Shown here piece by piece: positions 1 through 20,311 of a DNA stretch of 64,000 nucleotides. The stretch's first letter is position 1. The number at the start of each line of letters is the position of its first letter. The stretch spans positions 372,001 through 436,000 of the forward strand of contig NZ_JOJE01000005.1 of NCBI RefSeq assembly GCF_000720255.1, read 5' to 3'. The translations under genes were made by a program, and so were the position numbers. Origin of the DNA: Streptomyces griseus subsp. griseus. GTDB taxonomy: Bacteria > Actinomycetota > Actinomycetes > Streptomycetales > Streptomycetaceae. The notes below the pieces were generated by a model, which saw only the letters and a program-made list of their open reading frames with translations, was not told the DNA's origin and did no database searches.

Positions 1-1529
1 GAACGTCCGCAGTCACGGCAGTACACGGCGGGCAGGAAGAGGTTCGCCGACTGCCCCTCGGTGGCTGTGGTGACGGGCGCGGTGCGCGCCGCCGCCTCCT
101 CGGAGGTCTCGGGCGCGCCAGCCGTGTCCCACTGGAACTCGGCCTTGGGCCAGGGCAGCACGCCCCGCACGAGACGGGACACCGACCGGGCCCACTGGTG
201 AACCTCGACCTGCACGAAGGGACGCGGCTCCTCGGTCGTCGACCCCGGGTGACGGGCCACCGAGAGCAGCGCGACGAAGCGGGCGAGCGCCTTCGCCGCC
301 ACCTCGGGGCGCAGGGTGATGGTGCGGCCCCACGCCTGGGCACCGCGGCGCCACATCAGGTCGAGTACCTCGGGCATGGAACGCACCTGCCCGTCGAGGG
401 CGTGCAGCACGGCGGCGGTCAGCGGATGCCGCATCAGCACCCGGCCGAGCGCGAACGGATCGGTGTCGCGGCTCCCGGTGACGACCTCGGCGAGAGCGGC
501 GAACTCCTCCTCGCCGAGCGTGGGGTCGGGCAGGGCCGCCAGCTCGTCGGGGGTCGGCACGGGCAGGATCGGATCGAAGTCGTCGCTGGGCACGAACTCG
601 TCCACGGTCAGGCGCTGTTCGCCGACGATGGCATCGGCGGTGAACTCGGTGCCGAACACCTGGGTCGCCACGTCGAGCAACTGCCGCGCTCCGTCGGCGT
701 CCGTCCCGGAGGCGAGGGTCGCGGACGTGGCGACCGGGCAGATACGGCCGAGCGGACGCCCCGTCTCCGAGGCCCCGACTGCGGAGGCGAGCCGGCGCAG
801 GAGCATCGCCACGTCGGTGCCCTGCGCACCGTCGTAGGTGTGGAACTCGTCAACGACGACGTACCGGATGTCGGACCCCGCCCACATCGCGGCGTCGTCG
901 GCACGCTGGAGCAGCAGGTCCAGCATCTTGTAGTTGGTGATCAGGATGTCCGGCGGCGTGACCTGCATGTCGTACCGGTCGGTGTACACGTGGCTGTACC
1001 GGGTCGCTGCGCGCTCACCGATGTAGAGCCCTGCCCGGACCCTGTTCAGCTCCGGGTGGTCGATGAGAAGCCCGTTGATGCGCTGCGCCTGGTCGGTGGC
1101 GAGGGCGTTCATGGGGTACAGGAACACGGCCTTGACACCGGCGTGGCCGGCCGCCCTCTCGCGGGCGCAGTGGTCGAGTACCGGGTAGAGGAAGGACTCC
1201 GTCTTACCGGATCCGGTACCAGTGGTGACGAGGGTCGGCCGGGGGGTCCGCCCGCCTGCGGACGACAGCCGATCGAAGGCCACGGCCTGGTGGGCGTACG
1301 GCGTCCAGCCGTCCGTGCGTCGCCAGTCGAGGTACGTCTCCCACGACGGGTCCGCCGGGACGAAGGGCGTGCGCAGGCGGAGGAACGGCCCCCTGAACAT
1401 GCCGGAGTTGTCGTCCCCGAGGAACCTGTGCAGCGCCTTCCGTGCACCCTCGTCGGTCAGCGCGTAGGTAGTGGAGAGGTACTGAAGCAGGCTCTCCTTC
1501 AACCCCTCCGCTTCGAGCGTCGGCCTCAC
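1..1529 (-). CDS. drmA: DEAD/DEAH-box helicase, DISARM DrmA-like (partial, runs off left edge)
   Basis: No stop is reached before base 1, so only the first 509 codons are present. The GTG start at 1529 overlaps the TGA of the methyltransferase gene by 4 nt (GTGA), indicating translational coupling. The protein opens MRPTLEAEGLKESLLQYLST. A Walker A motif (TTGTGSGKTES) lies near residue 105, followed by an LYPMNALATDQ helicase motif, LITNYKMLDLLL, and a DEFH-type Walker B within VVVDEFHTYDGAQGTD. The last visible residues, VYCRDCGR, look like part of a Cys cluster. In class 1 DISARM the SNF2 helicase and methylase genes are followed by drmA, and the order here agrees. The visible half contains the first RecA-like ATPase domain. 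It could be another large helicase of the DUF1998-associated group; the DrmA assignment rests on motifs plus gene order. Confidence 0.8.
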   Translation of the reverse strand, partial: MRPTLEAEGLKESLLQYLSTTYALTDEGARKALHRFLGDDNSGMFRGPFLRLRTPFVPADPSWETYLDWRRTDGWTPYAHQAVAFDRLSSAGGRTPRPTLVTTGTGSGKTESFLYPVLDHCARERAAGHAGVKAVFLYPMNALATDQAQRINGLLIDHPELNRVRAGLYIGERAATRYSHVYTDRYDMQVTPPDILITNYKMLDLLLQRADDAAMWAGSDIRYVVVDEFHTYDGAQGTDVAMLLRRLASAVGASETGRPLGRICPVATSATLASGTDADGARQLLDVATQVFGTEFTADAIVGEQRLTVDEFVPSDDFDPILPVPTPDELAALPDPTLGEEEFAALAEVVTGSRDTDPFALGRVLMRHPLTAAVLHALDGQVRSMPEVLDLMWRRGAQAWGRTITLRPEVAAKALARFVALLSVARHPGSTTEEPRPFVQVEVHQWARSVSRLVRGVLPWPKAEFQWDTAGAPETSEEAAARTAPVTTATEGQSANLFLPAVYCRDCGR

Positions 1530-4500
1530 CGCTTCGGCACCTCCTGCTTGACCGGGTCCCACTCGCCTGCGGCCACGGCGTCATCCAGCCGCTTCTGGAA
1601 GTAGGCGTGAGCTTCGCGCATTTCGGTCTCGCGGTTGGCTTTGTAGAAGGGGGCGGTGTAGCCGTCGGGGGTGGGGGTTTGGGGGGCGGGGTTGTTCTCC
1701 GGGTCGGCCTGGTGGGCTTTGAAGGCGGGGTCGGCCATGTAGGCCTCGAACTGCTTCCAGGTTTCCTTGGTCTGGCGCTGGCCGATAGTGCGGGCGTAGC
1801 TGGCCAGCTTCCAGCCTTCGGCATCGAACCAGCTTGCGGCCTCGTATTTCTGGAGGACGGGGAAACGGCCTCGGTAGGCGGCGATCAAGGCGTCGGCATC
1901 CATGCCGAGCCAGACGGCCACCAAGGCGTCGATCTCGACGAGGGCAGCACGGCGGGCATACTCGGTGCGGAGAGGGGTGTCGCGCTGCCAGGTCGGGGTC
2001 ACGGCATGGAGTTCCGTCCTCATGGAAGGCCATGTGAGAGCCCAGGGCTCACAGACCGACCAGGTGGGGTCGTGAAGCTCCTGCCAGAGGTCGGCGTAAG
2101 CGGTAGTGAGGCAGTTGAGGCGGAGAGTTCGGAGGAGGAGGGCCGACGTGAGCGGGTGCTTGGGGTCCGAGGTTGGGGCTGGCATCGCCCGAGCGCTGCG
2201 ACCGAGTAGGTCACTGCGCCCCGTGATACGGAGGTAGTAGTCAGTCGGCAGAGATGACCAGAAACCAGCTACAAGTGCCGAATGGTGATCATTAGCCATG
2301 GCCAACGAGTTCACTACGTGGACATGCGCAGTACCGGGTGGAATCAATGCGGCAAAAAGCGCTCGCTCCGTATTTGGAGCAATCATTCTCCGCCATGCAA
2401 CTCGATAAAATGCCGTATACCGTCGCCGCGCTCGTTGCACAAGGAGCGCATCCACCTTGGCAGGATCAGCCTCCTCCAGGACTACGTGCTCATTCGCCGC
2501 CACCTGAGCACGAGCACGTTCTACAGCTTTGTCGCTCGCGCGGAGCCGTTCGAGTGCCTGGTAATCGATCCATCGATCCTGATCTTTGAGGTACTCCTGA
2601 GTGCGGCCGGCCACCCGCACATACTCCGTGTCCGGGACGAAGTCCGAAGGGAGAGAGACAAGGTCGGCACCGTAGGGTGCGTTGGAGTTGGCGTCGTGCC
2701 GCTTAAACACCGGTGTGGCGACGCTGATCTGCGTGCCCTTGAGGATTACGTGACGCCAACGGTCAGGCTCGTACTCCCTGCCGGTCGCCGGGTCCCGACG
2801 ATTGTAGTCGATCAGGCGATCCTTCTTTGCTCCGCTCTCTTCGAACCCCCGGGTGATCTGCGGCTTGAAAGCTTCCAAGCGCAGTGGATAGTCCGCCAGG
2901 GCTTCAATGGCGGATGTCTCTGCCGTGCTCACGGGAAACAGCAGACGAGCTTCCTCAACTGGCCCAGTATCGCCGAGCAGCCGCCTCCAAATCGCGAGTA
3001 GCTCACTATTGATGCGCACGACTCGCGTCCGGTGTGGACGTTCATCGAACTCTGCGTTCTGGTAACGGATACCAGGAACCTCCCCCGAACCATCGTGATC
3101 CGCCGACAAGCGTAGAGAATCGGCCGAGACCAGCCAAGAGAGGTGATCGAAGTCAATCTCCTGGGGGTGACCGTAGATATTCACACCAAAGTGCGTGGCG
3201 TGCCCAACGGGGAGAGGGAAGAACCGCTGACCCGAGTTCACGAAGTCCCCATGGATTCGCAGCCTGCGATACGCTGCTCCGCGAAGCGCTCCCTCCTTGT
3301 CCCCAGTGAAGTGCGTGCCGGAATGGAGGAATCCGGTCGTCCCCAGGGCCGAAGCGTGGTCCCACACCTGACACATGAAGGCCCGATACAGATCGGGCTG
3401 GGTTCCCTCCAACAAGGGGTAGACCTGCGGTGCACTAAAGAGTGCGACCTGACCGACGTTGTCGGTAAGTTCTTCCAGCACGTACGCCGCAGCTGCGGAG
3501 GCGTTGAGCACCTCCTCACGGCGTTTGACCTTGGCGACAGTGGAAGCCCGCTCCTCCAGCTCGAACCAAGGCTCTCGCTCCGCAAGCACCGAAGCCTCGT
3601 CCCACCGGGGCCGCACCCAAGGCGGGTTCCCCATCTGAAGGTCGAACCCACCGTCCTCCGCAAAGGCGAGCGCGAATTCCAACTCCCAATGCAGGAAGCC
3701 CTGCTCCTCCGCGATCTCCCTCACAACCCCCATCCAGGGGTACCGCCCCTCCGGATCGGTGCGGTCCATCCACATCTCGTCCAGGAGCAGCTTCTCGTAC
3801 TCCCCCAAGTCCTGGAGGGTGTCAAGGTCAGATCCAATGCTGCCCTCGGGAACCGGGCCCACTCCGAGCATGGACTCCAGGAAGTCCAGCCAGTCGTTCA
3901 GGTCCTTGAGCGGGATGACGGGGCGGCGGCGCTTCGGAGCCGAACCGGTCGGCTTCTTGCGCTGCTTCGGTACGCCGCCGGCCTTCTGCACCTCGTAGAA
4001 GTACTCCCCCTCCGCCTCCATGTCCGCGTCGTCGAGGGAGGGCTGGTCACCGTCCATCTGGAAGAGCAGGCCCGCCTGAGCGAACCGGGGCACGGGCCCG
4101 CTCGCCGCAGGAGCAGACGCAGGTGTAGGCACGCTCCTCAGCCGCGCCTCCTCCGGGGCCGCCTGGGGTGTCTGCGGCTCCCCGAACCCGCCCAGCAGCT
4201 CCTCAACGTCGATCGACTCCGCCGCGTACTCGCCGTCCGTACCATCCAGCAGACCGGCCTTGTCCACAGGCCAGAACCACAGCGCGCACCAGGCGTCCAT
4301 CACCTGCTTCAGCCGCCAGTACGGCGTGTCCACGGCGTTGAAGAGGTCCGCGTAGACCTTCTCCTTCGACAGCCGCGTCCCACCGACACCGTTCTCGGCC
4401 CGACGCAGGAACCCGAACTCCTCGTCCTGCGGGTCGGCTTCCCAGACGTCGATGCTGCGGGCGATCTCCCGCTCGGACAGCTCCATCCGCTTGACGACGA

Positions 4501-7159
4501 GCTTCCACAGGAACTCCGCGCGCCGCGACGCGTCCCGCAGCCGCGTGTACTGGGAGGCAGCCTCGTCACCGGTCTTCCGGTCGATCCTCGGCGTACCGGC
4601 CTGCGTGTACTTCCGCTCCGGCTTCTGGAGAATGCCCTTCTTCCACTCCTTCAGCTGCTCGACGCCGTCCCCGGCCAGCTGCCCCAGCAGCTTCTTCGCG
4701 TCACCGCCCGCCCGCGTCACCGCGGCCCAGCCCGGCGTCGGCAGCAGGAACTGGTGCACCGCACCGTCCGGCAGCGGCAGTTCCTGTCCGCCTGCCTCGT
4801 TGTCGCGGAACGGCAGCCGCGTCGGCGCCTGGGTGCCGTTGTCCTTCAGCCACCCGGGCTTGCCCTTCTGCGGCGAGACATCCTCCCCCGCGTACACCGC
4901 GCGCCGCCCGCCAATCAGCGAGTTGCCGCGCCGCAGGTGCAGCCCGAACCACGGCGCCCGCATCCCGGGATGCATGGTGTTGAGCCACAGCGAGACCTCC
5001 GCCAGCTCCACACCCGTCCGGTTCAGGTCGACACCGTACGCGTTGTGCAGGGCGACGTACGCCTTGACCTTCTGCTTCTCCGTCAGCGCCTGCGCGGTCG
5101 GGATCGAGCGGCCCAACTCGTCCTGCCGTCGCCGCAGATACTCCTCGGCGACCTGGTTGATCGCCTCGTTGAGGAACGCCCCGGAGCCGAGCGCCGGCTC
5201 GCAGATGCGGTACTTCAGCAGCTCCGAAGCCCGCGTCTTGACGACGTTACCCGCCTCGTCCTTATCCTGGTCGAGGCGGTGCTTCAGGGCCAGTTCGACG
5301 GTGACCTTCGTCAGCGACTCGGGGGTGTAGTAGGAGGCGGAGGTCTCCCGGTCACGTCCGGCGAGGCGGTACACGAACGTCCCCGCCGGGTACTTCTTCG
5401 GGCCACGCAGGCCCTTCTCCTCGCGGTCCCGCTCGTCGTACTCGACCCAGGTCTTCTCGTCGTACTCCTTGAGCCGGTGGGCTGGGACGAGCCACGACCC
5501 CTTCTCCGGGTCACCGCCCTTCGCGACCTCACTCAGCTCCTCCTCGGCGATGATGCCGGTATACGACATCAGGCCCTCGTAGACCGCACCGAGCTGGTTG
5601 ATGCCGAGGTTGCGGTACGAGATGAAGCCGCCACGCTCACCGCGCCGCTTGGCCTTCTTCATGGTCAGCAGTCGCAGCACCTCGTGCAGGGCGCTGTTAC
5701 GCAGACGCAGATCGAGCCATGCCGGGCCCTCAGGGCTGTCCTCGTCACGGCGCGGATCACGGATGCCGCGGCCGATGAGCTGGACCGCCCCCGGCTCGAA
5801 GAGTTCACTCCGCAGCGGTTCGAAGCGCAGCCCGCGCCCCTCGCTGCGCTGCTTGGCCTTCTTCTTGCGGGTCTCGGCGTCGTCGCCGTCCTGTTCGTCC
5901 CACGGTTCGGTGCCGTACTCGCGGTGCCCGTAGTTGACCTTGTTGAAGAGGAGGTCGAGGGAGTCGTGCAGGTGGGTGCCGTTGCGGGCGGTCTCGTCCG
6001 TGAGCTGGGCGTCCCGCTCGACGATCTCCCGGAGCCGCGCCACCGAGTAGCCGGCCTCGTACGTGCCGTCGTCGGCGGGGAGGATGCCCAGTTCGGGGCG
6101 GGCCTCCGCGTAAAGGAGGAAAAGGATGCGGTAGAGGTAGCGCAGCGCCTCGCGGGTCAGTTGCCGGGCGAAGGGCTCCCCCGGCTTCTCGAGGTCGCGA
6201 GGTTCGAGACCGGCTTCCTCCAGCCGGTCAAGGACCTCGTTGGCGATGATCTCGACGGACTTCTGGAGTCCCTGGCGCAGCTCGCCGGAGACCCCGACCG
6301 CGTTGTCACGGGACGCCTTGACCAGGGCGTCGATGGCGGGGCCCTTGCCGTCCTCGGCCGGCACGAGCGCGTCGTGGCTGAACAGACCGGCGATGGTGGC
6401 GAGTTCGCCGGTCTGACGCCGGTCGTAGCGCTCCAGGGCGGCATCGACGTTGGCGGCGAGGTAGCGTCCCTCGCCCCATGCCTGCCGGTCGGCGAGGACG
6501 ATCACGCCGCCGCAGAGCAGCAGGACAAAGCGGGGGGCGCTGCCTCCCTCGCCGCCCAATTCGCTCTGGAACAGCCAGGTGGCGAGCGCGTGGCCCGACT
6601 CGTAGGTCTCGCCGTTGCCCACCGTCCGCAGCGGGTGGAGCAGACGGCCGTAGCCCTCGGCGTCCAGGGCGGTGTCGTTGCTCGCGGACCAGCCGCAGTC
6701 GACGGCGACGATGCCGTCACCGTGCCAGGCGACCTTGACCATGTGGTCGCGTCCGGCACGGTGGACGGTCAGTTCGAGCGGACCGTCCGCGGCGTCGGCA
6801 CCCGGGTAGCCGAGGGCGGCGAGCACCTTTCGGTGCCAGGCGGCGACGCGCCCGCACCACTCCTCGTCCTCGTAGGTGTTGAGGCGCTCCTCGAAGCCCT
6901 CCTTGTCGGGGTGCTCGTCGTCCTCCGCGTCCGCCTTGGCCTGCTCGGCGAAGAACCCCCGGAACTTCTCGTCGAGGTAGACGGAGCGCAGGCCGCGCAG
7001 GGCTACGCGCGGTGTGGTGCGTTTGTCGTTCTCGTCGGACTCGCGGTCCGTCCAGGCCGCGAACACGCCCTTCTTGAGGCCGTCGGCGAGCTGCTCGGCG
7101 AAGTAGTGCGCGGACAGGTACTCGCCGCGGTTGGAGAAGGAGTCGAAGTCGGTGCTCAT
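1526..7159 (-). CDS. drmMI: Very large N6-adenine DNA methyltransferase, DISARM DrmMI-like
   Basis: This 1877-residue protein is a class I SAM-dependent DNA methyltransferase of the Eco57I/N6-adenine type. The SAM-binding motif PALGSGAFLNEA lies near residue 652 and the catalytic NPPW motif (QMGNPPWVRP) near residue 1178, a long separation filled by charged sequence. The C-terminal third resembles the target-recognition part of Eco57I/TaqI-like enzymes (for example SLPTDYYLRITGR). Its ATG overlaps the TGA of the SNF2-helicase gene (ATGA), and its own TGA overlaps the GTG of the next helicase. In class 1 DISARM this methylase marks host DNA while the helicases act on unmodified phage DNA. Base composition drops sharply inside the gene: I counted about 52% G+C over 2281-2400 against roughly 70% around it. 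It is longer than a typical Type I HsdM or PglX protein. A stand-alone type IIG-like enzyme is the main alternative. Confidence 0.8.
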   Translation of the reverse strand: MSTDFDSFSNRGEYLSAHYFAEQLADGLKKGVFAAWTDRESDENDKRTTPRVALRGLRSVYLDEKFRGFFAEQAKADAEDDEHPDKEGFEERLNTYEDEEWCGRVAAWHRKVLAALGYPGADAADGPLELTVHRAGRDHMVKVAWHGDGIVAVDCGWSASNDTALDAEGYGRLLHPLRTVGNGETYESGHALATWLFQSELGGEGGSAPRFVLLLCGGVIVLADRQAWGEGRYLAANVDAALERYDRRQTGELATIAGLFSHDALVPAEDGKGPAIDALVKASRDNAVGVSGELRQGLQKSVEIIANEVLDRLEEAGLEPRDLEKPGEPFARQLTREALRYLYRILFLLYAEARPELGILPADDGTYEAGYSVARLREIVERDAQLTDETARNGTHLHDSLDLLFNKVNYGHREYGTEPWDEQDGDDAETRKKKAKQRSEGRGLRFEPLRSELFEPGAVQLIGRGIRDPRRDEDSPEGPAWLDLRLRNSALHEVLRLLTMKKAKRRGERGGFISYRNLGINQLGAVYEGLMSYTGIIAEEELSEVAKGGDPEKGSWLVPAHRLKEYDEKTWVEYDERDREEKGLRGPKKYPAGTFVYRLAGRDRETSASYYTPESLTKVTVELALKHRLDQDKDEAGNVVKTRASELLKYRICEPALGSGAFLNEAINQVAEEYLRRRQDELGRSIPTAQALTEKQKVKAYVALHNAYGVDLNRTGVELAEVSLWLNTMHPGMRAPWFGLHLRRGNSLIGGRRAVYAGEDVSPQKGKPGWLKDNGTQAPTRLPFRDNEAGGQELPLPDGAVHQFLLPTPGWAAVTRAGGDAKKLLGQLAGDGVEQLKEWKKGILQKPERKYTQAGTPRIDRKTGDEAASQYTRLRDASRRAEFLWKLVVKRMELSEREIARSIDVWEADPQDEEFGFLRRAENGVGGTRLSKEKVYADLFNAVDTPYWRLKQVMDAWCALWFWPVDKAGLLDGTDGEYAAESIDVEELLGGFGEPQTPQAAPEEARLRSVPTPASAPAASGPVPRFAQAGLLFQMDGDQPSLDDADMEAEGEYFYEVQKAGGVPKQRKKPTGSAPKRRRPVIPLKDLNDWLDFLESMLGVGPVPEGSIGSDLDTLQDLGEYEKLLLDEMWMDRTDPEGRYPWMGVVREIAEEQGFLHWELEFALAFAEDGGFDLQMGNPPWVRPRWDEASVLAEREPWFELEERASTVAKVKRREEVLNASAAAAYVLEELTDNVGQVALFSAPQVYPLLEGTQPDLYRAFMCQVWDHASALGTTGFLHSGTHFTGDKEGALRGAAYRRLRIHGDFVNSGQRFFPLPVGHATHFGVNIYGHPQEIDFDHLSWLVSADSLRLSADHDGSGEVPGIRYQNAEFDERPHRTRVVRINSELLAIWRRLLGDTGPVEEARLLFPVSTAETSAIEALADYPLRLEAFKPQITRGFEESGAKKDRLIDYNRRDPATGREYEPDRWRHVILKGTQISVATPVFKRHDANSNAPYGADLVSLPSDFVPDTEYVRVAGRTQEYLKDQDRWIDYQALERLRASDKAVERARAQVAANEHVVLEEADPAKVDALLVQRARRRYTAFYRVAWRRMIAPNTERALFAALIPPGTAHVHVVNSLAMANDHHSALVAGFWSSLPTDYYLRITGRSDLLGRSARAMPAPTSDPKHPLTSALLLRTLRLNCLTTAYADLWQELHDPTWSVCEPWALTWPSMRTELHAVTPTWQRDTPLRTEYARRAALVEIDALVAVWLGMDADALIAAYRGRFPVLQKYEAASWFDAEGWKLASYARTIGQRQTKETWKQFEAYMADPAFKAHQADPENNPAPQTPTPDGYTAPFYKANRETEMREAHAYFQKRLDDAVAAGEWDPVKQEVPKR

Positions 7160-10410: not shown

Positions 10411-10507
10411 ACCGTTCTCACTGCCGCTTTCCGGTGTTCTCGCCCGCTGCCGGCACTGACGCGCCGCCTCGGCACTCGTGGGAATCGCCCTGCCCGCTCA
10501 CCGCATG

Positions 10508-11749
10508 TCACAGGGCCGGTTGCATCGCGTACCGGGCTCTCAGTTCCTCGGCCACCTTCTGCGATGCCGGTTTCCGGCCGGGTCTGCGGGGCGGATCGGC
10601 AGGCGCCCGCTCGGTAGGGCGGGAGGAGGCGTCCCCGCGATCCGTACTGTCGTCCGACGGTACGACCGCGGCCCCGGTGTGGCTCTCGTCCACCCCTGAC
10701 GCACCGGAGGACTCGGGTTCCGCTCCGTCCTCGACGGGGTCGGGGCGGGCAGGGCGGTCCAGCGGACTGTCGACACCATCCTCGTCCACGACCTGCGTGT
10801 GCACGTCGGGCGCATCGCCGTACTGGACCGCGATGCGCTCCCACACCGATGGCGAGGGCCCGGTGCGCCCCTCCCCTCCGGGGAAGGGAGCAGCTACGTC
10901 GATCAGTGCGTACCGCGCCTCGACAGGGGTGAGTCCCGCGTCCTTCATCAGCGCCACGCACCGGTCCGTGACCTCCGCGAGGGCGGGCCGCTCCTCCGGG
11001 GCGTGGGCGAGCATCGCCGTGACCAACGGGACGAGCGCCTCGGGCAGTCCCGAGAGGTCCGGTGGCTGGGTCTCGTCGGTCACCTGGGCGACGATCGCCG
11101 GCCAGCCCCGGCCGTCGTACGGGTAGTGGCCGGTGGCGGCGTACAGCAGGACCGTGCCCAGGCCGTACACATCGGCCGGGGTCTTCACCCGGGAACGGCC
11201 GAGGGCCTGCTCCGGCGGCATGCAGCGAACCGTGCCGATGATCATGCCGTCGTGCGTGAGAGTGTCCTTGCCCGCGTCCAGGAACGCGCCCAGCCCGAAG
11301 TCGATCAGGATCGGACCGTACTCGCCGAGCATGACGTTCTGCGGCTTGAGATCGCGGTGCAGGAGGTCGACGGCGTGCACCGCCCCCAGGCCTTCGGCGA
11401 GGAGCGCGCCGAGACTGGCAACCAGCGGCACCGGGAGGGTACCGGCGCTGTCCACCTGCTCCTGGACGGTCCGGCCTGGCACGTACTCGACAGCCATCCA
11501 CGGTTCGTCGGCATAGGGATCGGCGTCGAGGAAACGGGCCACCCGGTTGGTTCCGACGACCGTCCGGGCGATCAACGCCTCTCTCTCGAAGCGCGCCCGA
11601 GTCGCCTGATCGAGCCGGTCGTTCCTGATCACCTTCACCGCGACCGGGTCGCCGCCGGGCGAGTAGGCCAGATAGACCTGTCCCATGCCCCCCGCGCCCA
11701 GTTCGCGCTCAACCGTGTACCGGCCGATCTGCGCGGGCACCTCAGTCAT
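10508..11749 (-). CDS. Serine/threonine protein kinase, soluble, in defence operon
   Basis: A 413-residue Hanks-type kinase. The start is taken at ATG 11749, giving MTEVPAQIGRYTVEREL; an in-frame ATG at 11794 is possible. The kinase domain fills residues 8-270: glycine loop GAGGMGQVY, catalytic Lys in VAVKVIRND, HRDLKPQNVM, DFGLG and the PPEQ form of the APE motif, so it should be active. The remaining 140 residues are acidic, Ser/Pro-rich and end in a basic helix (RPGRKPASQKVAEELRARY). No membrane helix or PASTA domain is visible, unlike housekeeping PknB, which suggests a cytoplasmic role. It sits directly upstream of drmD on the same strand. A kinase also occurs in the Pgl phage-growth-limitation system of Streptomyces (PglW), so a regulatory or effector role in defence is plausible but inferred. 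Confidence 0.85.
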   Translation of the reverse strand: MTEVPAQIGRYTVERELGAGGMGQVYLAYSPGGDPVAVKVIRNDRLDQATRARFEREALIARTVVGTNRVARFLDADPYADEPWMAVEYVPGRTVQEQVDSAGTLPVPLVASLGALLAEGLGAVHAVDLLHRDLKPQNVMLGEYGPILIDFGLGAFLDAGKDTLTHDGMIIGTVRCMPPEQALGRSRVKTPADVYGLGTVLLYAATGHYPYDGRGWPAIVAQVTDETQPPDLSGLPEALVPLVTAMLAHAPEERPALAEVTDRCVALMKDAGLTPVEARYALIDVAAPFPGGEGRTGPSPSVWERIAVQYGDAPDVHTQVVDEDGVDSPLDRPARPDPVEDGAEPESSGASGVDESHTGAAVVPSDDSTDRGDASSRPTERAPADPPRRPGRKPASQKVAEELRARYAMQPAL

Positions 11750-11811
11750 CTCTGCCGCGTCACCCTCTCGTGCCCACCTGTCCAGGCACGTCACACTTTC
11801 ACCGAAGGATC

Positions 11812-11840
11812 ACCTTATCGCTGCGGCCGAATGCCGTCAT
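11812..11840 (-). promoter_or_regulatory. Predicted promoter for kinase-drmD-drmMI-drmA
   Basis: On the minus strand, a -35 ATGACG (11835-11840) and a -10 TAAGGT (11812-11817) are separated by 17 bp. Transcription would start near 11804, about 55 nt before the kinase ATG. This falls in the only substantial gap (11750-11910) between the CBS gene and the kinase gene, so the DISARM-like part could be transcribed independently of the upstream accessory genes. Confidence 0.45.
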
Positions 11841-11910
11841 CGGGTTCACGGCCTCTGACATCGGCGAACGCGGGGCCGGGCCATAAGTGACGCCCGCTTT
11901 CGACCCCTGC

Positions 11911-12951
11911 TCACCGTACGCAGTCCCGAAGCTGCCGGGCGAACGAGGTCAGGTCCCTCATGTCCTCCGGCGGCAGCGGATCGTCGTCGAAATGAGCGAT
12001 CCGGTTCCTGATGGCCTGCACCCGCTGGAGATGGTGGACGAACTGGCCGCGGTCCAGTGCGGGACGGCCCAGCGCGACCCAGTTGGCGTCGGCACGCTGA
12101 GCCAGTGCGGTCCTTCTCTGCGCGCCGTCCAGGAGCATGACGTAGTCGCCGAACATCAGGTCTTCCACCTTGCCGGTGCGTTGCTCCGGCTTACGGTTGG
12201 TCGCCTGCACGGCGATGACCGCTTCCGCGTCCAGACGGGCGCCCAGCCAGCGGCGGAGCAGCGACTCGATCTCGCCGAGAAGGAAGAACGGCCGGGCGGT
12301 GTTCTGGAACCGGCGGACGATCTCCTGGTACGTGACGATGCCGGATATTCGGCCGTCCTGTCCCCGTACCAGCACGTAGCCCTGATCCACGAGCATGGGC
12401 AGGCAGCTGAACAGGTCCTCCCTGCTGTCGAACACCGGCAGGGACTCCTGCTGCATGGCGTTCTCCAGAGTCGTCTCCCAGCCGTTCTCATACATGAGGG
12501 CGATCGACTTCCAGGTGACCACTCCGTGGAGCTCGGTCATGTTGCTGACCACGGGGATCTGGTTGTAGCCCTCATAGCGCATGAGATAGGTGGCCTGGCT
12601 CAGCTCGGCACCAGGGGGGACGCACTCCAGGCCGACCACGGCGGAGGGCAGTTCCCCCAGCAGCAGGCGCTGAGGCAGCGCGCCCGGCGGCAGCGGATCG
12701 GCCGGCACGGCGGGATCTTCCTCGGGTGCCACAGCCGTGGTGGCCGCGACCGGCACGAGCCGCACCCGGGCGAGGGTCGGGCAGGTGGAGAAGTCGGGAA
12801 GCGTCGTCAGTCCGGCAGCTGCCAGTGACTCGTTCATTTCCCGGATGATGCCGGTCTGCCGCACCCGCACGTCGTACAGGGCCAGCAGTTCGGACAGCGC
12901 GAGTTCGGCCCCCTTGAGGGCGATCAGCTCCGCCGTCGTCGGTTTCTTCAT
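11911..12951 (-). CDS. CBS-domain protein with C-terminal HEPN-like (RNRIAH) domain
   Basis: A 346-residue protein with three parts. The N-terminal region (1-100) is helical then proline/alanine-rich. Residues about 105-225 form a CBS-type pair (GYNQIPVVSNMTELHGVVTW; QGYVLVRGQDGRISGIVTY), which in this superfamily binds adenosine nucleotides. The C-terminal 120 residues contain EDLMFGDYVMLL and end in IRNRIAHFDDDPL, an R-N-x3-H pattern typical of HEPN ribonuclease domains, similar to Swt1-like HEPN proteins. Its ATG overlaps the stop of the DUF262 gene (TGATG), so the two are translationally coupled. A nucleotide-sensing RNase or toxin activated during infection is an inference. The alternative is a non-catalytic HEPN scaffold. 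Confidence 0.7.
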   Translation of the reverse strand: MKKPTTAELIALKGAELALSELLALYDVRVRQTGIIREMNESLAAAGLTTLPDFSTCPTLARVRLVPVAATTAVAPEEDPAVPADPLPPGALPQRLLLGELPSAVVGLECVPPGAELSQATYLMRYEGYNQIPVVSNMTELHGVVTWKSIALMYENGWETTLENAMQQESLPVFDSREDLFSCLPMLVDQGYVLVRGQDGRISGIVTYQEIVRRFQNTARPFFLLGEIESLLRRWLGARLDAEAVIAVQATNRKPEQRTGKVEDLMFGDYVMLLDGAQRRTALAQRADANWVALGRPALDRGQFVHHLQRVQAIRNRIAHFDDDPLPPEDMRDLTSFARQLRDCVR

Positions 12952-14777
12952 CAGCGCTCCCCCTCCTCGTCAGCAGTGCCGCGGACGACCGTGGTGCGCT
13001 TGCCCATGGCATGGAAGACCAGGTCCTCCAGCGCAGAGGCGCGCGCCTCGAAGAACGCGACGTAGTCGTTGGCCCGCAGCGCCTTGGCGTCGATGAGATG
13101 GGTGGAGATCACGTCGTCGAACCACTCGGAGCGCATGTCGGCCGCCGCCGCAAGGGGCTCCAAGTACGCGGCCGGGGCACCGCTGAGGGCCTGGGCCGCC
13201 CGAAGGGACAACGGTGTTTTGTTGATGATGGAGCTGGCCGGGTAACGCTCGTCGAGATTTCGGCGCACCCAGTTCTTCGGGAAGACCTGGTGCACGTCGA
13301 CGCCGTACTCCACCAGTCGGCCCGGAGCCATCGGGCTCTCGGTGTAGTGCCAGTCCACAGCACCCTGACGGATCAGGAGCGCGAAGATGCCCTTGTACGC
13401 GGCGCTGTTGCGGGTCTTGAGGGTGAACAGGCGCTGGGGGTCGAAGAGGGAGTCTGCGATCGTGTCGGGGACTTCGCCGTCGTCACGGATCCACGCGATC
13501 AGTTGCTCCACATCACGGGTGAAACGGGTCTCCGTAGAGCCGCCGTACATCTCCCCGAGGACGCCGCACCAGTACCACTGCGTGATCTTCTGAATCGCGC
13601 CCGGGTTGTCGAGTTCTTCACCGAGGATCGCCCGGACCGCGGCCAATGGAACCACCTGCGTCCGGTACGGCAGGTCCGCCGCCTGGACGATGCACTGTGT
13701 GAACAGAAACTCCCCGACCCATTCGAAGGCGTCTCGAAGACGGGGGGCCAGCTCCTGGAAGTCCTCCAATGGGAGCTCCAGCAGATCCCGCCGCTTGCAG
13801 GAGACGCCCACCGTGGCATCGAGCAGCTTGCGGTTCCATGTCCTCACCAGGGCCACTGCCTGGAGAAAGTCGCTGTTGGTCAGACCGTCGTCGAGATCCA
13901 CCTCCAGGCGGCCGAGCACGGTGTACCGCTCCGCCACATATTCCTTGATCGAACGCCAGACGGAGGGCAGGTCGTAGTAGTCGCCCGTGCGACTCGTGTA
14001 CTCACGATCCCCGGCATAGGTGGCGGTCAGCAATTCGAAGACGTTGAGCGGGACGCCTCCCGTGTTGACTCGTTCGAAGACAGCACAGACGGCGTCCATG
14101 GACGTCGACGAGGACAGATTGATCATGGGCACTTGGAACGACCTGACGGGGTGCAGCACCTCGTCCTCGAACTTGATCCACAGATCGAAGTTCTGCGCCT
14201 CGTCCGCCCTCTCGTACTCGCGACGCCATGCGTTGACCCTCTGGGTGTCGAAGACGATCCTCAGGGGGAACAGTCCCGCGGCGCACTCACCCGCGGTGTC
14301 GCTGAGGTCGTGCACGACCTTCCGCCCGAAATCCCTGCGCAGGATGCGGTCCTCCGGCACAGAGACGATCGCCTCGTCGCGGTCGGACGGTGAACCGGTC
14401 GCCTTCGCTATGTCGACGTAGTACCAGCGGCGGACCGACTTACCCCGAGTGTCCACGGTCCGAACCGGTGCGTCGGCCACGTACAGAGCTTGGAAGAGCG
14501 ATGTCAGACGCTGCTGGCCGTCCAGCAGCAGGAGACTGGGATCCCGCTCGGCGACCGACTCCGCACCCGTGAGGGGCCTGGTACGGAAGCGGGAGGCGCC
14601 ACCGGTCTCCAGCGTCATCGTGACACCCAGGGGGTAGTCGAGCGTCACGGTCGCGATGATGGCCCGAATGCGGTCGTCGTCCCACTTCCAGTCCCTCTGG
14701 AAGTCGGGAAGTTGAAGCCGTCCCGAAGCGACGTCACCGAGAAGCGTCTTGAGATTTGCACTGTCCAGCCCTGCCAC
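12951..14777 (-). CDS. DUF262 domain protein with degenerate C-terminal HNH (DUF1524-like) region
   Basis: A 608-residue DUF262 protein. I chose GTG 14777 because translation from there (MAGLDSANLKTLLGDVASGR) begins where DUF262 families begin; the frame stays open to 15050 but the extra residues look non-coding. The DUF262 signatures are LQLPDFQRDWKWDDDRIR near residue 21 and LLLDGQQRLTSLFQAL near residue 78. This ParB-like fold hydrolyses nucleotides in GmrSD-type restriction. Near residue 495 comes VDVHQVFPKNW followed by SIINKTPLSLR, the layout of the DUF1524/HNH nuclease, but Q stands where a second His is usual. DUF262-DUF1524 proteins typically cut modified phage DNA. The stop overlaps the CBS gene; the upstream GHKL gene ends 208 nt before the start. 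Confidence 0.82.
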   Translation of the reverse strand: MAGLDSANLKTLLGDVASGRLQLPDFQRDWKWDDDRIRAIIATVTLDYPLGVTMTLETGGASRFRTRPLTGAESVAERDPSLLLLDGQQRLTSLFQALYVADAPVRTVDTRGKSVRRWYYVDIAKATGSPSDRDEAIVSVPEDRILRRDFGRKVVHDLSDTAGECAAGLFPLRIVFDTQRVNAWRREYERADEAQNFDLWIKFEDEVLHPVRSFQVPMINLSSSTSMDAVCAVFERVNTGGVPLNVFELLTATYAGDREYTSRTGDYYDLPSVWRSIKEYVAERYTVLGRLEVDLDDGLTNSDFLQAVALVRTWNRKLLDATVGVSCKRRDLLELPLEDFQELAPRLRDAFEWVGEFLFTQCIVQAADLPYRTQVVPLAAVRAILGEELDNPGAIQKITQWYWCGVLGEMYGGSTETRFTRDVEQLIAWIRDDGEVPDTIADSLFDPQRLFTLKTRNSAAYKGIFALLIRQGAVDWHYTESPMAPGRLVEYGVDVHQVFPKNWVRRNLDERYPASSIINKTPLSLRAAQALSGAPAAYLEPLAAAADMRSEWFDDVISTHLIDAKALRANDYVAFFEARASALEDLVFHAMGKRTTVVRGTADEEGER

Positions 14778-14816
14778 GTGCCCCGTTCCCCACCCTCGTG
14801 TCTTCGTGGACAAGGC

Positions 14817-14845
14817 ATTGCACCAAGGGAATCTTGCGCCGTCAA
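14817..14845 (-). promoter_or_regulatory. Possible promoter for DUF262-CBS pair
   Basis: Minus strand TTGACG (14840-14845) and TGCAAT (14817-14822) are separated by 17 bp, placing a start near 14810, about 33 nt before the GTG at 14777. The -35 is good and the -10 is poor. It lies in the 208-bp gap behind the GHKL gene. Confidence 0.3.
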
Positions 14846-14985
14846 CATCACTTGACGCAGCGTCACATGCTTGCAGGGCGGGCTGTGAGCCGCCGTCACC
14901 GAGCTCCGGCATCGGGATGCGTGGAGACGGCAGCTTCGCCTGGTCGTTCGTCGGCCGGTTGAGCCTTTCCGGTGCCGTCCGCGCG

Positions 14986-17900
14986 CTACCCCCTCCCCAA
15001 CGGCGAGCACTGATAGCGCACCCCCCGGCTGACCATCCTGAAGCGGTCACGCCCCTGGGCCGAGAACGGGTTCGGCAGGTCGAAGACGCGGCGCTGCTCC
15101 GGGACGAGGGCAGAGGTGATCAACAGGATGCGGTAGCGGTTGCCCCGGGCGTGGCGGCGGGCCGCTTCCACCTCGGACGGTCCGAGTTCGAACTCCACCC
15201 GCTCGGCACACGGGTCGCTGAGTGCCTTCACCTCGTACAGCCGGGTGGTGTCACGCCAGGTGACCTCGAAGTCGTAGCCCAGGGAATCGGACGCCTCGTC
15301 GTCTCCGTTGACGACGGCCGCATAGCCCGAGGTCCACCGCACATCGGGGTAGTGGCGCTGGAGCCAGGCGCGCGCGGCCACCTCCCCGACGAGACCGATG
15401 GCGGACCGCTGGTCCTCGGTAGTCCGCTTCGCCTTCGCGACGACGATGCGCGGCTTGACGGAGGATCCGCCCCCGCTGCGTGGCCGGGGCACGTCGACCA
15501 CGGTGTCCAGGCGCACCCTGCCCGACTGGGCGAGGAAAGCCTCGTCGATGGTTCTCGATGCGATGTCCGCGATGGTGGAGAGCTGGTCGCTTCCGACCCT
15601 GACCTCGGCGTCCCCGATGGTGATCGTGCGTGGAGCGACGATCGTGGAGACACCGGAATCCCGGGCCCGTGCCTCCGTCTGCGCGAGATCCTTGTCGGTG
15701 AGGCCCAGCGCCGCTGGGTCCGCGGCGTGCGGCATCCCGGCGGGCCACCCCACGGCTCGTCCCACCGCGTCGAGCAGATGGCTCTCGCTCAGCGGCAGCA
15801 GGTCACCCAGCCCGGTACCGTCGATGTAACTCCTGCATTCCATCAGCACCGCCCCGTGCCACCCCGCAGGCACCTGGATGCCGTGACGGCGGCACCAGGC
15901 GGTCACCAGTGGGGGCAGCACCGGCACGAGCGCGTCCAGTGCGGCCGTGTTGCGTGCCCGGAGCCGGTCGAGGGGCTCGAGTTCGGTGGGCCGCTCGAGG
16001 TCGTCGTCAGCTCCGTGCGATCGGAGCCATTCCCGCGCCCTGTCGCGCATCGCCTCCTCCGGCGGGGTGATGAACCGGGGAAGCCAGTCCGGGTCCGGCT
16101 GGAGGTCGTGGAGACCGCGGGCCGCGGCGTAGCCGGAGATGTCCTCATCCTGCTGCGCGGCGACGGCGTATCGCTCGCGGAGCCGGTCCAGAAGGATTCC
16201 GAAGCGAGCGCGTACGAAGTCGCCGAAGGCCTGTTCGTGGCGGTCCGGGTAGTACTCCGGGGAGTACCCGAGGGCGACCAGTGCGGTGTTGAACTGCTGC
16301 AAGTCGAGTCCCAGTTCGTCCCTGAGCTCCGCCGGCCTCGTGCAGGAGCGGGCCAGGGCGACCAGCTCCGCCGACGGCAGCGGCAGACCGGGCGCGAGCC
16401 GGTCGATGATCCCGACGAGTTCCCGTTCGCCGGCCGCACGACCGAGAAGGCGGGCGGCCTCCTCGTTCCAGGCGTCGGCAGCCAGGCACGCCAGCACGGG
16501 GCGGAGCAGTCTCACCGTGTCCTGCACGTCACCCGTGAGGTTGCGCCGGATCTCGGCGACCCTGGCCTGGGTCGTGTCCAGTGCGGCGGCGAGGACGCCG
16601 TCGTCGACGAGCGTCGGGCTGCTGCCGCCGAAGCTCCGCTCGAGTTTGACGAGGACCAGTTCCAGCGCGTCCTGCAACCACGGCCTGCCCAGCAGTTGTG
16701 CGACGGCAGGTGTCGCCGCCTGCAGTTCGTCCCACCCCTCGTCGCTTCTCCAGACGACCACCGTGGGGTACTCGTCGTCCGGCAACGGCAGGGCGCGCGT
16801 CGACGACGGCGGTTCGGCCGGCGTCCCGGAGACGGTGATCTCCACGTCTTCGGCGTGTACGACGCGCAGGCCGCGGAGCCGTTCGAGCGCGGCCCGGACA
16901 CCGCGCTCGCTGCGGCGCACGAATGCCCCGGACTTGAGTTCCATGGCGAGGGCGACCACGGTGACCAGCCACTCCCGTTCCCGGATGAACACCGCCGCCT
17001 GACTCGACGGCGTGATGGGGGCGCCGTCGCGATGACGTACCTGCACGTTCGTGGTCGACGTGCGCTGTACCCTCAGCCCGTTCGCCTCTGCCAGGCGGAC
17101 GACGGCGTCACCGGACTCCGCCGGGGCGACGAGGACGGGATGCCCCGCCGGCTCGATGAGCGCCTCCTTCAGGGGATCCGCCTCGTCGCAGACGATGACT
17201 GGTGCTTCGTCTGCTTCGTCGGCCGACGGGGTGAAGGTGCCGAGCACGTGGGTGCGGCTGACCACCAGGCGGACCTCTTCGCTCGGCGCCCAGGGCCACT
17301 GGCCCGTCCGTACGATGTTCGACCAGGCCCGTTCGTAGTGCCGTTTGAAGGACACGCTGAGGTACTCGGGCACCTCGCCCTTGTCTAGCACGTCAGCGAG
17401 CTGACTCACCGCCGCCCCTGCGTGCAGCGGATCTTCCCACCTGCGCAGGCCGAGCCGGAGCATCCGCTCGACGACATTCCTGTCGGTGAGCATGCGGCGC
17501 GTCGACAGGGGGAGCGCAGGGACGAAGGCCGGGAGTTCCCCGTCGGTACTGAACCAGGCCCGCCGGGGTGCGACGAAGGAGGGACCATCCGGCTCCTCCA
17601 CGGGCAGCCAGGCCATGCCGCGGAGGTAGGAGGCCAGAGGAGTGGGCCAGGTGTGCGCGTCCTTGAAGGAGTAGGTGGGCCTGTGCACGGTGACGGTGAA
17701 GACCTCCTCGCCCCAGGTACGCAGCCCGTGCATCAACAGCTCGGCGAACTCGCGCCGGGCGGCAGGGCCGAGCCCGGCCACTTCGGTCGCTCCCGCCAGG
17801 TGGGCAGGCGGGTGTGTGAACTCGTAGGGCGTGTAGGGGTGCTGGAATCGGGTCCAGTCGCTCCTGACATCGGCGCACCAGGCATCGGTGAGCGCGTCCC

Positions 17901-20277
17901 CCAGCCCGAAGCCCGTGGCCAGTCCCGTGAGGCGCAGTTCGTGTCCCTGGCGGGCTCCCAGTCGCTCCCCGACGGTTTCCGGCCGCAGGCCGTCGCACAC
18001 ACCGAGGGATTGCAGGAACTCGGTGTAGGCCGCCCGGTCCCGTACCGGCGCGGGCCAGTCGTCGGGTCCGCTGATCCACTGGTCCCGCTGCGCGGCCAGG
18101 GCCGGGATCCCGGATCCTCCCTCGGCGAGGAACCGCTCCAGCCGCCGCGCTCCCTCGGTGCCCCATGCGGGTGAGAAGGAGCAGCGTGCGGCTCTGCCCC
18201 ACCGGCCGGTGTCGGCCAGTGGCAGCCGGAAGGGAATACGGGCCAGCCGTCGGCGCTGGGCCTGGGTGAGCAGCGGGTACTGCCGGAACGCGAAGGTGAG
18301 GGCGTCGCGGCCGAGCGCCTCCGAGGGGTGGCCGCAGAGCAGGTCTTCCAGTGCGTCGAAGACCCGGTCGAGTTGGTACGGGCGCACCAGTTCGTTGCGC
18401 TCGAGGAACCCGCGCCCAACGCCGTCCCAGGCGATCGCCGGGTGGGTGAAGGAGATACGGCGCCGGAGTGCCTTGAGATCACCCGGGACCCGGGTGGCGG
18501 TCTCACCGTCCGCCATGTCGTCGGGCTCGGGGTGGAAGAAGACGGTCGCGTCCTGCCTGCCGGCATCGGTCCGGCCGCCGAGGGCGCTTCTCAGCCGCAT
18601 GTCCTGGTCGAGGATGATGCGTCGGCCTCGCAGCACCCCTTGGTCCCGGGCGAACGCATGGGACAGGTCGCTGTAGAAGTCCGCCCATACCTGCCCTTCC
18701 GGTTCCGTACCGCCGAGCAGAGACCGGGCCACGGCTTCTGCCCACCCAGCGGCCAGGAGCGCCGGCGGACGGAAGGGCCTGGAGATGACGGCTCTGCACA
18801 GCTTGTCCAGACGCGCGTGGCGGACAGGGCCGACAGACGGGGTCAGCAGGTCGGCTCCGGCCGCCGTGAGTGCCTCGGTGGTGAGTACGCGCCAGGAGCG
18901 CTTGCCGTCGGGCCATCCGTAGGAGTCCTGCAACGAGCCCCACCTCTCCCTGCCGTGCAGGGGCACGATCGGTTCAGCGGCGAGCCTCCCGTCAAGGGCC
19001 GCGTCCAACCGGTCCGGTACGTCCCAGCACATGAGGTCAAGCACCAGGTCCGCGGCGAGAAGGTGCGGGGTCTCCGAACGAATGCGCCTGCTCAGTTCCA
19101 CCGTCAGCAGGGCGAGTTGGTCGAGGAGGAAAGCGTTCAGGGCGACCGTCTCGCTGATGTCGAGGCGAGCCAGCTTGGTGAAGAACGGTGCATGGGCATG
19201 GCCAGGGAACGGGGCGTGGACGCCCTCGGCCATCGGCAGGAAGGTGTACATGCGGCCGTTGGGGAGCGGTACGTCGAGGCGCAGCGCGACCGCCACCGAT
19301 GCCTCGGCGTCCCAGTTCTCCCATGCGGCGTCGATCTCACGCGCCTGAACGCTGCGGCTGATCGCTCCGCCCAGGGCCTCGGGAGCGAGGGTGCGACGCG
19401 CCAGCAGGTAGCGGCCCGCCTCGGCGAGGTCGACCTCCCGTACCCAGTCGTCCTCGCCCGCGGTGACCAGGTCCGATGTGCGCTCGGTACGCGAGAGAAC
19501 CTGCCGGAAGACAGTGTCGGAGCCGTCGCGCACCTCGACGAGGAGTTCGGCCACCCGGTCGAGGAAGAGCAGGAGCGGCGCCTCACCGTTCACCACGTCC
19601 TCCGTCTGTGCCACGGCGAGTCCCCAGGCGTGCTGGTCGCGCAACGGCAGCCGTACGACCGTGGAGTACCCGTCCTCGGCGAGTTCCTTGAGGAGGGGAT
19701 CGGTGACGTCGGCCGGTACCGGCAGCGCCAGCGGGGAGATGTCCTCGATCACCCGGGTGGCGAGCGCCGGGTCTTCCACCAGGGAACGCACATCCTCCGG
19801 TCTGGCGAAGCGGAAGCAGTAGCCGTCGAATACCTGGGAGTCGGAGGAGGACTTCGAGTAGATCTCCGGCCAGTCCGTCACTTGCAGCACACTGCGGAAG
19901 CCGAGGCCCTTGTTTCCGATGCCCTCACCGGCCGCCTTGCTCGACAGAGCCAGCTCAGTGATGGCGCGGAAGTTCTCCTCGGCGAACACCGTCCCCTCGT
20001 TGGCGACGTAGAGAACGCCGCCGTCCTCCCGGATTACCGCCAAGACAGCGATCCTTCCCGGGTCCGCCTGACCGAGTGCGTCGTGGCCGTTCTGGACCAG
20101 TTCGAGGATCGTGCGGCCCTCGTACTCCTGGGCGGTGTCCTCGCTCACGGACTTCAGGCTCTCGGCGAACCGCCATGTTTCGCCCGCGTCCCTGTAGATC
20201 TCGACTCGCCGCCGGGTCAGGTCGAGTACGGCCGACCGGAATCCATCGCACCCCTCGGCATCCCGCTTCGATGTCAT
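14986..20277 (-). CDS. Sacsin-like GHKL ATPase fused to DUF3883 (PD-(D/E)XK-like) domain
   Basis: A 1763-residue protein. The ATG at 20277 is preceded by GAGGGGGAA at good spacing; the frame is open further upstream without a better site. The N-terminus is a GHKL (Hsp90/histidine-kinase-like) ATP-binding domain: N-box ILELVQNGHDAL near residue 57, then VANEGTVF and GIGNKGLGFRSVL near residue 118. A long middle region (about 250-1600) has no motif I can name. The C-terminal 120 residues are DUF3883: GLVGEVAARAWL, then GYDFEVTWRD and LYEVKAL, giving the D...E-x-K arrangement of PD-(D/E)XK nucleases. Such ATPase-nuclease fusions occur in prokaryotic defence islands. It is the first gene of the same-strand series leading into the DISARM-like genes. 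DNA cleavage controlled by ATP binding is inferred from the domains. Confidence 0.8.
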   Translation of the reverse strand: MTSKRDAEGCDGFRSAVLDLTRRRVEIYRDAGETWRFAESLKSVSEDTAQEYEGRTILELVQNGHDALGQADPGRIAVLAVIREDGGVLYVANEGTVFAEENFRAITELALSSKAAGEGIGNKGLGFRSVLQVTDWPEIYSKSSSDSQVFDGYCFRFARPEDVRSLVEDPALATRVIEDISPLALPVPADVTDPLLKELAEDGYSTVVRLPLRDQHAWGLAVAQTEDVVNGEAPLLLFLDRVAELLVEVRDGSDTVFRQVLSRTERTSDLVTAGEDDWVREVDLAEAGRYLLARRTLAPEALGGAISRSVQAREIDAAWENWDAEASVAVALRLDVPLPNGRMYTFLPMAEGVHAPFPGHAHAPFFTKLARLDISETVALNAFLLDQLALLTVELSRRIRSETPHLLAADLVLDLMCWDVPDRLDAALDGRLAAEPIVPLHGRERWGSLQDSYGWPDGKRSWRVLTTEALTAAGADLLTPSVGPVRHARLDKLCRAVISRPFRPPALLAAGWAEAVARSLLGGTEPEGQVWADFYSDLSHAFARDQGVLRGRRIILDQDMRLRSALGGRTDAGRQDATVFFHPEPDDMADGETATRVPGDLKALRRRISFTHPAIAWDGVGRGFLERNELVRPYQLDRVFDALEDLLCGHPSEALGRDALTFAFRQYPLLTQAQRRRLARIPFRLPLADTGRWGRAARCSFSPAWGTEGARRLERFLAEGGSGIPALAAQRDQWISGPDDWPAPVRDRAAYTEFLQSLGVCDGLRPETVGERLGARQGHELRLTGLATGFGLGDALTDAWCADVRSDWTRFQHPYTPYEFTHPPAHLAGATEVAGLGPAARREFAELLMHGLRTWGEEVFTVTVHRPTYSFKDAHTWPTPLASYLRGMAWLPVEEPDGPSFVAPRRAWFSTDGELPAFVPALPLSTRRMLTDRNVVERMLRLGLRRWEDPLHAGAAVSQLADVLDKGEVPEYLSVSFKRHYERAWSNIVRTGQWPWAPSEEVRLVVSRTHVLGTFTPSADEADEAPVIVCDEADPLKEALIEPAGHPVLVAPAESGDAVVRLAEANGLRVQRTSTTNVQVRHRDGAPITPSSQAAVFIREREWLVTVVALAMELKSGAFVRRSERGVRAALERLRGLRVVHAEDVEITVSGTPAEPPSSTRALPLPDDEYPTVVVWRSDEGWDELQAATPAVAQLLGRPWLQDALELVLVKLERSFGGSSPTLVDDGVLAAALDTTQARVAEIRRNLTGDVQDTVRLLRPVLACLAADAWNEEAARLLGRAAGERELVGIIDRLAPGLPLPSAELVALARSCTRPAELRDELGLDLQQFNTALVALGYSPEYYPDRHEQAFGDFVRARFGILLDRLRERYAVAAQQDEDISGYAAARGLHDLQPDPDWLPRFITPPEEAMRDRAREWLRSHGADDDLERPTELEPLDRLRARNTAALDALVPVLPPLVTAWCRRHGIQVPAGWHGAVLMECRSYIDGTGLGDLLPLSESHLLDAVGRAVGWPAGMPHAADPAALGLTDKDLAQTEARARDSGVSTIVAPRTITIGDAEVRVGSDQLSTIADIASRTIDEAFLAQSGRVRLDTVVDVPRPRSGGGSSVKPRIVVAKAKRTTEDQRSAIGLVGEVAARAWLQRHYPDVRWTSGYAAVVNGDDEASDSLGYDFEVTWRDTTRLYEVKALSDPCAERVEFELGPSEVEAARRHARGNRYRILLITSALVPEQRRVFDLPNPFSAQGRDRFRMVSRGVRYQCSPLGRG

Positions 20278-20311
20278 GGCTGTTCCCCCTCGTTCGTGCA
20301 CAGCCCTGCGC

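Follow-up and report, generated by a model that had tools for sequence, protein, structure and literature searches.

A Hanks-type kinase as the probable partner of an actinomycete branch of ARMADA type II in a composite Streptomyces defence island

A Streptomyces defence island is here read as four parts lying side by side: Tiamat, a DUF262/CBS-HEPN module, a five-gene armK-armA-armB-armC-armD cluster, and a type II Wadjet, with ARMADA defence licensed by phosphorylation as its probable mechanism, a reading held with moderate confidence. The first gene of the arm cluster encodes a Hanks-type serine/threonine kinase, here named ArmK, which by sequence is a partner of one ArmA clade. The island was found in the window, a 64,000-nucleotide stretch of Streptomyces griseus subsp. 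griseus (contig NZ_JOJE01000005.1, positions 372,001 to 436,000), and in its left flank.

On the minus strand, in the order of transcription, the window carries the genes for Tiamat, the DUF262 protein, the CBS-HEPN protein, the kinase, a SNF2 helicase, an N6-adenine methylase and, cut by the window's left edge, a large helicase (Table 1). The first-pass annotation had placed seven minus-strand genes here, and all were recovered at their positions with the expected families (SNF2, PglX-like methylase, DEAD helicase, Hanks-type kinase, CBS, GmrSD_N and GHKL). An apparent overlap of the DUF262 and GHKL genes proved to be an artefact of the ORF start, as most homologues start at the position of the window's GTG 14777, leaving ~208 bp between this start and the Tiamat stop at 14986. 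In the left flank armC is followed, via a 4-base ATGA overlap, by armD, encoding a UvrD/GajB-like helicase with a putative RelE/ParE-like N-terminus, after which come the genes of a type II Wadjet, JetA-D (JetABCD).

Table 1. Genes and other features of the island within the window.
Feature	Position	Strand	Remarks
ArmC, 5' part, YprA/DruE-like helicase (DEAD-Helicase_C-MZB)	1..1562	-	whole gene 2283 aa, ~5.3 kb beyond the window's left end
ArmB, PglX/type IIG-like N6-adenine methylase, 1877 aa	1526..7159	-	NPPW and GSG motifs
ArmA, BrxHII/RapA-like SNF2 helicase, 1084 aa	7156..10410	-	family models and motifs
ArmK, Hanks-type Ser/Thr kinase	10508..11794	-	kinase domain and C-terminal tail joined by a variable linker
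CBS-pair protein with C-terminal HEPN-like helical domain	11911..12951	-	RNRIAH at residues 315-320
GmrSD_N (DUF262) protein, BrxU-like fold	12951..14777	-	DGQQR kept; stop/start overlap with the CBS-HEPN gene
Tiamat (TmtA) homologue, sacsin/GHKL-like N-terminus	14986..20277	-	1763 aa counted from Met39 of the listed ORF
~150 bp element close to the island's right end	20917..21070	.	also present in three related islands

The right boundary of the island is put near 20.4-21.1 kb, because apparently ordinary metabolic genes (ORFs read by eye, without family search) seem to occupy ~22.3 to 30.5 kb. No tRNA was found in the whole window, and no Rfam match in positions 1-30000. In Streptomyces sp. 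MA5143a, positions 3609-20447 of the window are matched at 92.7 percent DNA identity. Copies of the ~150 bp element, at 82-87 percent identity, were located at L253:2165-2485, L254:2064-2211, L172:7110-7263 and L157:16611-16691, the last being just 81 bp; in the four islands that unite the DUF262/CBS-HEPN pair with kinase-ARMADA, it sits ~6-12 kb outside the DUF262 gene, and is perhaps an attachment or mobilisation site.

ARMADA type II, as set out in the available text of its description, consists of ArmA (BrxHII-like), ArmB (PglX-like), ArmC (YprA-like) and ArmD (RelE-GajB-like) in strict order, and protects Escherichia coli by a direct, non-abortive route for which each of the four genes is required (Bell et al. 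2025, PMC12458937). The core of the island is assigned to this type by gene order and domains: all four arm genes are present in order, and their Walker, DExH/DEAQ, NPPW and SAM-site motifs are akin to those reported as mutated in that text. ArmA matches BrxHI/BrxHII and DrmD models, ArmB type IIG and DrmMI models, and ArmD GajB and UvrD models; the best models for ArmC are those of Druantia DruE, its domains are DEAD, Helicase_C and MZB (PF09369), and it has the Walker A motif GTGSGKT and DEFH. This agrees with the third gene of type II, a YprA-like helicase closest to DruE into which OB-CON-DUF1998 is fused. A RelE-like part of ArmD is weakly suggested by matches of its N-terminal 105 aa to ParE_like (0.013) and ParE_toxin (0.024, residues 9-91 on 5-89 of 89), neither of which reaches the curated cut-off of Pfam. 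The difference from the described type II systems is that, throughout the ArmA branch to which the island belongs, the first gene encodes a Hanks-type kinase.

The same genes had previously been taken for an extended class 1 DISARM, with a trio of drmD-, drmMI- and drmA-like genes at its core. DISARM requires a separate drmB and drmC. The first two assignments have some basis, as the PADLOC DrmD and DrmMI models score on ArmA and ArmB, and in these two genes the island does resemble class 1 DISARM; the third gene is DruE/YprA-like rather than DrmA, runs on past the window to 2283 aa, and has DUF1998/MZB fused into the helicase. Left of base 1 neither drmB nor drmC adjoins, the sequence there holding the rest of the YprA-like armC, the UvrD gene armD with its putative RelE/ParE-like N-terminus and then JetABCD; the first-pass annotation had itself named the absence of drmB and drmC from this side as grounds for refutation. 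PADLOC gave no DrmB match for ArmC or ArmD among the matches listed (best 25 of 35 and best 25 of 38), and no DrmC, a PLD nuclease, among the matches listed. On this gene content class 1 DISARM was rejected, and a class 1 DISARM with accessory genes is now hardly credible.

The link between the kinase and ARMADA was established by surveying ArmA loci. In 246 genomes of the genus, with three candidates scored per genome and a strong ArmA defined as one above 560 bits, 42 loci were obtained; a same-strand kinase lies directly upstream of ArmA in all 41 that could be viewed, the 42nd beginning at a contig edge. Wider sampling found ArmA in 8 of 396 genomes of a phylum sample, 42 of 394 of a class sample and 32 plasmid records (7 viewed), while phage records gave no ArmA match at E 1e-30. 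Four genomes (G057, G169, G757 and G912) have two ARMADA II loci each, as judged by ArmA matches. A tree of 91 ArmA sequences was built, with the weak or cut L168-L171 dropped; 88 had enough upstream DNA to be scored (L183, L245 and L252 were not assessable), a kinase being scored as present when a profile built from the window's kinase hit it on the same strand and at most 2 kb upstream of ArmA. By this definition the kinase is directly upstream in all 65 assessable members of one clade (SH-aLRT 99) and in none of the 23 outside it, with the limit that very different kinases could escape a profile grown from this one. In L240, scored as lacking a kinase, two kinase matches on the opposite strand lie 1-2 kb upstream.

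Mapped on the tree, kinase presence takes one change of state, against a mean of 20.4 for shuffled labels. The tree shows one gain of the kinase in this ArmA clade and no loss within the sample, and because of that single gain the 65 kinase loci are not 65 independent events. They span the genus and two further host families (f89 and f90), and in f90 nine loci have the kinase and six do not, its presence tracking the ArmA clade and not the host. ArmA and kinase distances correlate at 0.918, the largest of 999 permutations reaching 0.186 in a test that ignores relatedness. By ORF calls the spacing from kinase to ArmA is -45 to 251 bp, with two mis-called starts left out, a range at which co-transcription is uncertain. 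The kinase lies outside the ARMADA core, because E. coli ARMADA II works without one, according to the available text (PMC12458937), and 23 of the 88 assessable ArmA loci lack one. Within the kinase-bearing clade, one sub-branch has GmrSD_N (DUF262) genes inserted between armB and armC (L135:14474-16923 and L144:13508-15037); the insertion in L135 also holds an AAA_21/DUF3696 ATPase gene.

Defence genes cluster in any case, and the island could be a hotspot in which unrelated systems, the kinase included, are merely stacked. For two of its parts stacking is clear. The GHKL protein matches the PADLOC TmtA profile over nearly its full length, with no difference seen (E 0, 1792 bits, residues 45-1796 on profile positions 11-1779 of 1782), and is identified by this match as Tiamat, a separate system present in two of the four genomes with the union and without a match beside the union in the other two (G105 and A1277). 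It had first been labelled a GHKL-DUF3883 protein, of which the GHKL part and the 1763 aa stand, and the DUF3883 part has no Pfam backing, Pfam giving SACS only. No Tiamat match was found in three sets of viewed loci (40, 38 and 12, the window itself lying outside these), and among the 65 kinase loci only the window has it; one inseparable system including Tiamat was rejected, Tiamat being missing beside most relatives viewed. Wadjet, the other clearly stacked system, has its genes at L003:106-8600, to the left of the window, and Wadjet-like genes adjoin several other kinase-ARMADA loci on either side (L115, L118, L124, L151, L153, L168 and L169), which suggests a recurrent shared hotspot. For the kinase, stacking is improbable: among assessable loci every member of the one ArmA clade has it and none beyond that clade was found to, and with 36 kinase matches in the window's own 9.9 Mb genome, a same-strand kinase within 2 kb upstream would by arithmetic be expected by chance in only ~0.4 percent of cases.

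The reading of the kinase as a partner of ARMADA extends to its sequence. HRDxKxxN is kept in all 65 clade kinases and DFG in 64, the exception being L223. After a variable linker, the C-terminus carries AxxLRxxY in 47 of 65 or, in the relaxed form [AV]xx[LIMV]RxxY, in 60 of 65; the strict motif occurs in none of 25 complete kinase paralogues from the window's own genome. In ArmK, whose likely start is Met16 near 11749, the tail reads VAEELRARYA within 10511-10555. We infer from this conservation that the tail may be a docking peptide. The remaining five kinases (L152-L155 and L161) have a different tail, and the three of them in the tree (L152, L153 and L155) group with a genome paralogue; a swap of the kinase is possible, given that grouping and an AU test that did not reject a single clade of separate kinases (p 0.15).

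A second association of kinase and ARMADA came from three of the 12 weak ArmA matches in the genus survey that were viewed (L168, L169 and L170). L170 encodes a 2151-aa protein with a kinase domain ahead of a YprA helicase (Pkinase-DEAD-Helicase_C-MZB by Pfam), followed by BrxHII- and PglX-like genes, which is the type I order; the same fusion and order were detected by tblastn on a plasmid of Streptomyces sp. BHT-5-2, in a record unannotated there. Among 7958 homologues, the best 120 all carry the fusion by Pfam lists, as judged by eye, the top ranks favouring fusions because the query region included the kinase; all 120 keep HRDxK..N, DFG and DExH, and none shows the strict Walker A pattern in the stretch scanned. 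Across 199 genomes of the genus, 29 match rows from 28 genomes span kinase and helicase, and seven cover the helicase part only. By coordinates, the fusion lies ~6 kb upstream of a weak ArmA match in G116, G143, G158 and G181, as does a kinase-less YprA match in G022 and G156, and on a Nocardioides plasmid the type I order occurs with no kinase annotated. One genome, G105, has both kinase-ARMADA II and a kinase-YprA fusion. In L169 (5373-7819) and L168 (6410-8296), two adjacent kinases lie upstream of a distant BrxHII-like helicase, the second in L169 having a weak TPR match. That separate, fused and L168/L169 kinases form one clade was rejected by an AU test (p 8.6e-6), and with it a single origin for all ARMADA kinases; as the fused kinase of type I-order systems is separately derived, kinases entered ARMADA at least twice.

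That a kinase is the first gene of a whole branch suggests an ARMADA defence that may be switched by phosphorylation. In the mechanism proposed, ArmB would mark host DNA by methylation, and unmarked phage DNA would be attacked by ArmA, ArmC and ArmD. ArmK would be anchored to an ARMADA subunit by its C-terminal tail and, on infection, would phosphorylate at least one of ArmA-D, licensing the attack, or might instead restrain it in uninfected hyphae. The DUF262 protein could sense nucleotide or DNA state, and the CBS-HEPN protein could read an adenosyl ligand and act as a back-up RNase, bringing a growth stop should ARMADA fail. The model for such gating is Pgl (BREX type 2), in which, according to the available text of PMC4365076, an essential Hanks-type kinase likewise accompanies a PglX-type methylase in Streptomyces, resistance depends on PglW acting as a kinase, and PglW is proposed to signal to PglX. 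By analogy, an ARMADA complex guided by methylation may be gated by ArmK in the way proposed for PglW. The two differ in that PglW is a large NERD-kinase protein, whereas ArmK is a small kinase with a tail; neither PglZ nor PglY was among the matches listed for 13 scanned proteins (12 genes), and no PglW was in the best 25 of 33 matches to the kinase.

The main rival to a switch acting on the ARMADA proteins is a kinase that regulates transcription of the operon or its response to stress, as CapK/CapS does. According to the available text of PMC13373217, a kinase whose gene lies upstream of an immune operon can act by phosphorylating a repressor, and in an annotated locus on one Streptomyces plasmid (L178:5749-7455) the kinase gene is directly preceded by genes for an HTH regulator, a DUF397 protein and an ATP-binding protein, a possible regulatory link. 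No such regulator adjoins the kinase in L179, also annotated, however, and CapK, unlike the Hanks-type ArmK, is a GHKL kinase that has CapS next to it. In type I-order ARMADA, moreover, the kinase, derived separately, forms one protein with the helicase, a point in favour of a role at the protein level. An operon regulator is regarded as unlikely, and a kinase acting on ARMADA proteins is preferred.

The two genes upstream of armK have a history of their own. DUF262 and CBS-HEPN genes are adjacent in all 62 named loci and in 20 of 20 loci; 56 of the 62 have no other island gene, four match one or two others weakly or in part, and two have the kinase and ArmA. These counts, together with the absence of the pair from 62 of the 65 kinase-ARMADA loci, show a two-gene module in its own right, usually found alone and a candidate defence module. 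The DUF262 protein resembles the BrxU/GmrSD type IV enzymes in having GmrSD_N with DGQQR and in its best fold match, BrxU (7p9k, E 3.9e-8, TM ~0.4). It differs from them in its CBS-HEPN partner and in the C-terminal HxxFP motif, consulted as a sign of an active HNH nuclease, the His of which, present in the window protein, is Arg in the family consensus and most relatives. One ARMADA locus without a kinase also has a DUF262 relative (44 percent), oriented divergently from ArmA (L232:13269-14990).

The HEPN label of the CBS protein is partly borne out. Its C-terminal domain has helices over residues 220-345, with R315, N316, H320 and F321 invariant in 20 rows (RNxxxHF), in agreement with an R-x4-6-H pattern, and Pfam gave weak matches to HEPN_Swt1 in 12 of 20 members and HEPN_Apea in 8 of 20 (best E 0.002). 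Fold searches listed matches to the CBS pair, with no HEPN structure among them, so the label lacks a solved-structure match. The tied top structural matches of the CBS pair include SAM- or MTA-bound structures; the ligand is a guess, because AMP-bound matches tie with these and Foldseek puts others first. The protein had no match in phage records, and for distant CBS proteins, encoded on one Rhizobium and one Halobaculum plasmid, no DUF262 gene is annotated alongside.

The first-pass annotation had proposed that the genes form either one composite system or a DISARM stacked with a second system that shares a kinase. Recurrence is beyond chance: DUF262-CBS and kinase-ArmA occur in the same order in all assessable loci. 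The strongest form of the composite reading, in which DUF262, CBS-HEPN, armK and armABCD (seven genes) are one inseparable system, draws on a union of the pair with kinase-ARMADA on one strand in four genomes, which is monophyletic in both the ArmA and CBS-HEPN trees and under purifying selection (dN/dS 0.08-0.33), with 65-93 percent identity of CBS-HEPN. A fifth locus, L230 in host family f90, has both genes divergent from the kinase, and in L247, L156 and L157 a CBS-HEPN relative is beside the kinase without a DUF262 match. The relatives in these last four loci have RN-x3-HF, and none was found in the 23 kinase-less loci; CBS-HEPN relatives thus adjoin the kinase on at least four branches. 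The idea that the pair was united with kinase-ARMADA only once was dropped on account of L230 and of the lone relatives in the other three. Weighed against the many pairs without another island gene and the many kinase-ARMADA loci without the pair, inseparability has only a small chance of being right. What holds of the composite is a kinase fixed in this ARMADA branch, CBS-HEPN relatives recurring beside it and one union kept in four genomes; what fails is that the pair is mostly alone and Tiamat separate. A broader scheme is put forward tentatively: actinomycete ARMADA would have come under kinase control at least twice independently, through a separate kinase tethered by its tail in one type II branch and through a kinase fused to the YprA helicase in type I-order systems, and acquired a CBS-HEPN guard, with or without DUF262, on several branches. 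The CBS pair of this guard would read SAM or a related adenosyl ligand, so that a phage disabling methylation by destruction of SAM would trigger growth arrest by the RNase.

No description of an ARMADA kinase was found in the open-access literature covered, which leaves priority unproven; the word 'kinase' is absent from the main text of the ARMADA paper as available (PMC12458937), and the available text of a 2026 BREX survey mentions kinases in PglW and DndF (PMC12839542). The vague 'extended DISARM' is replaced by three testable statements: that a large actinomycete branch of ARMADA has its own kinase; that type I-order ARMADA often has a kinase fused to its helicase; and that DUF262 and CBS-HEPN may together make up a two-gene defence module, one that recurs beside kinase-ARMADA. 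Taken with PglW in Pgl, the kinase suggests that actinomycetes have repeatedly placed PglX-type methylation defence under kinase control, and the role of such kinases becomes testable in a second system, simpler than Pgl.
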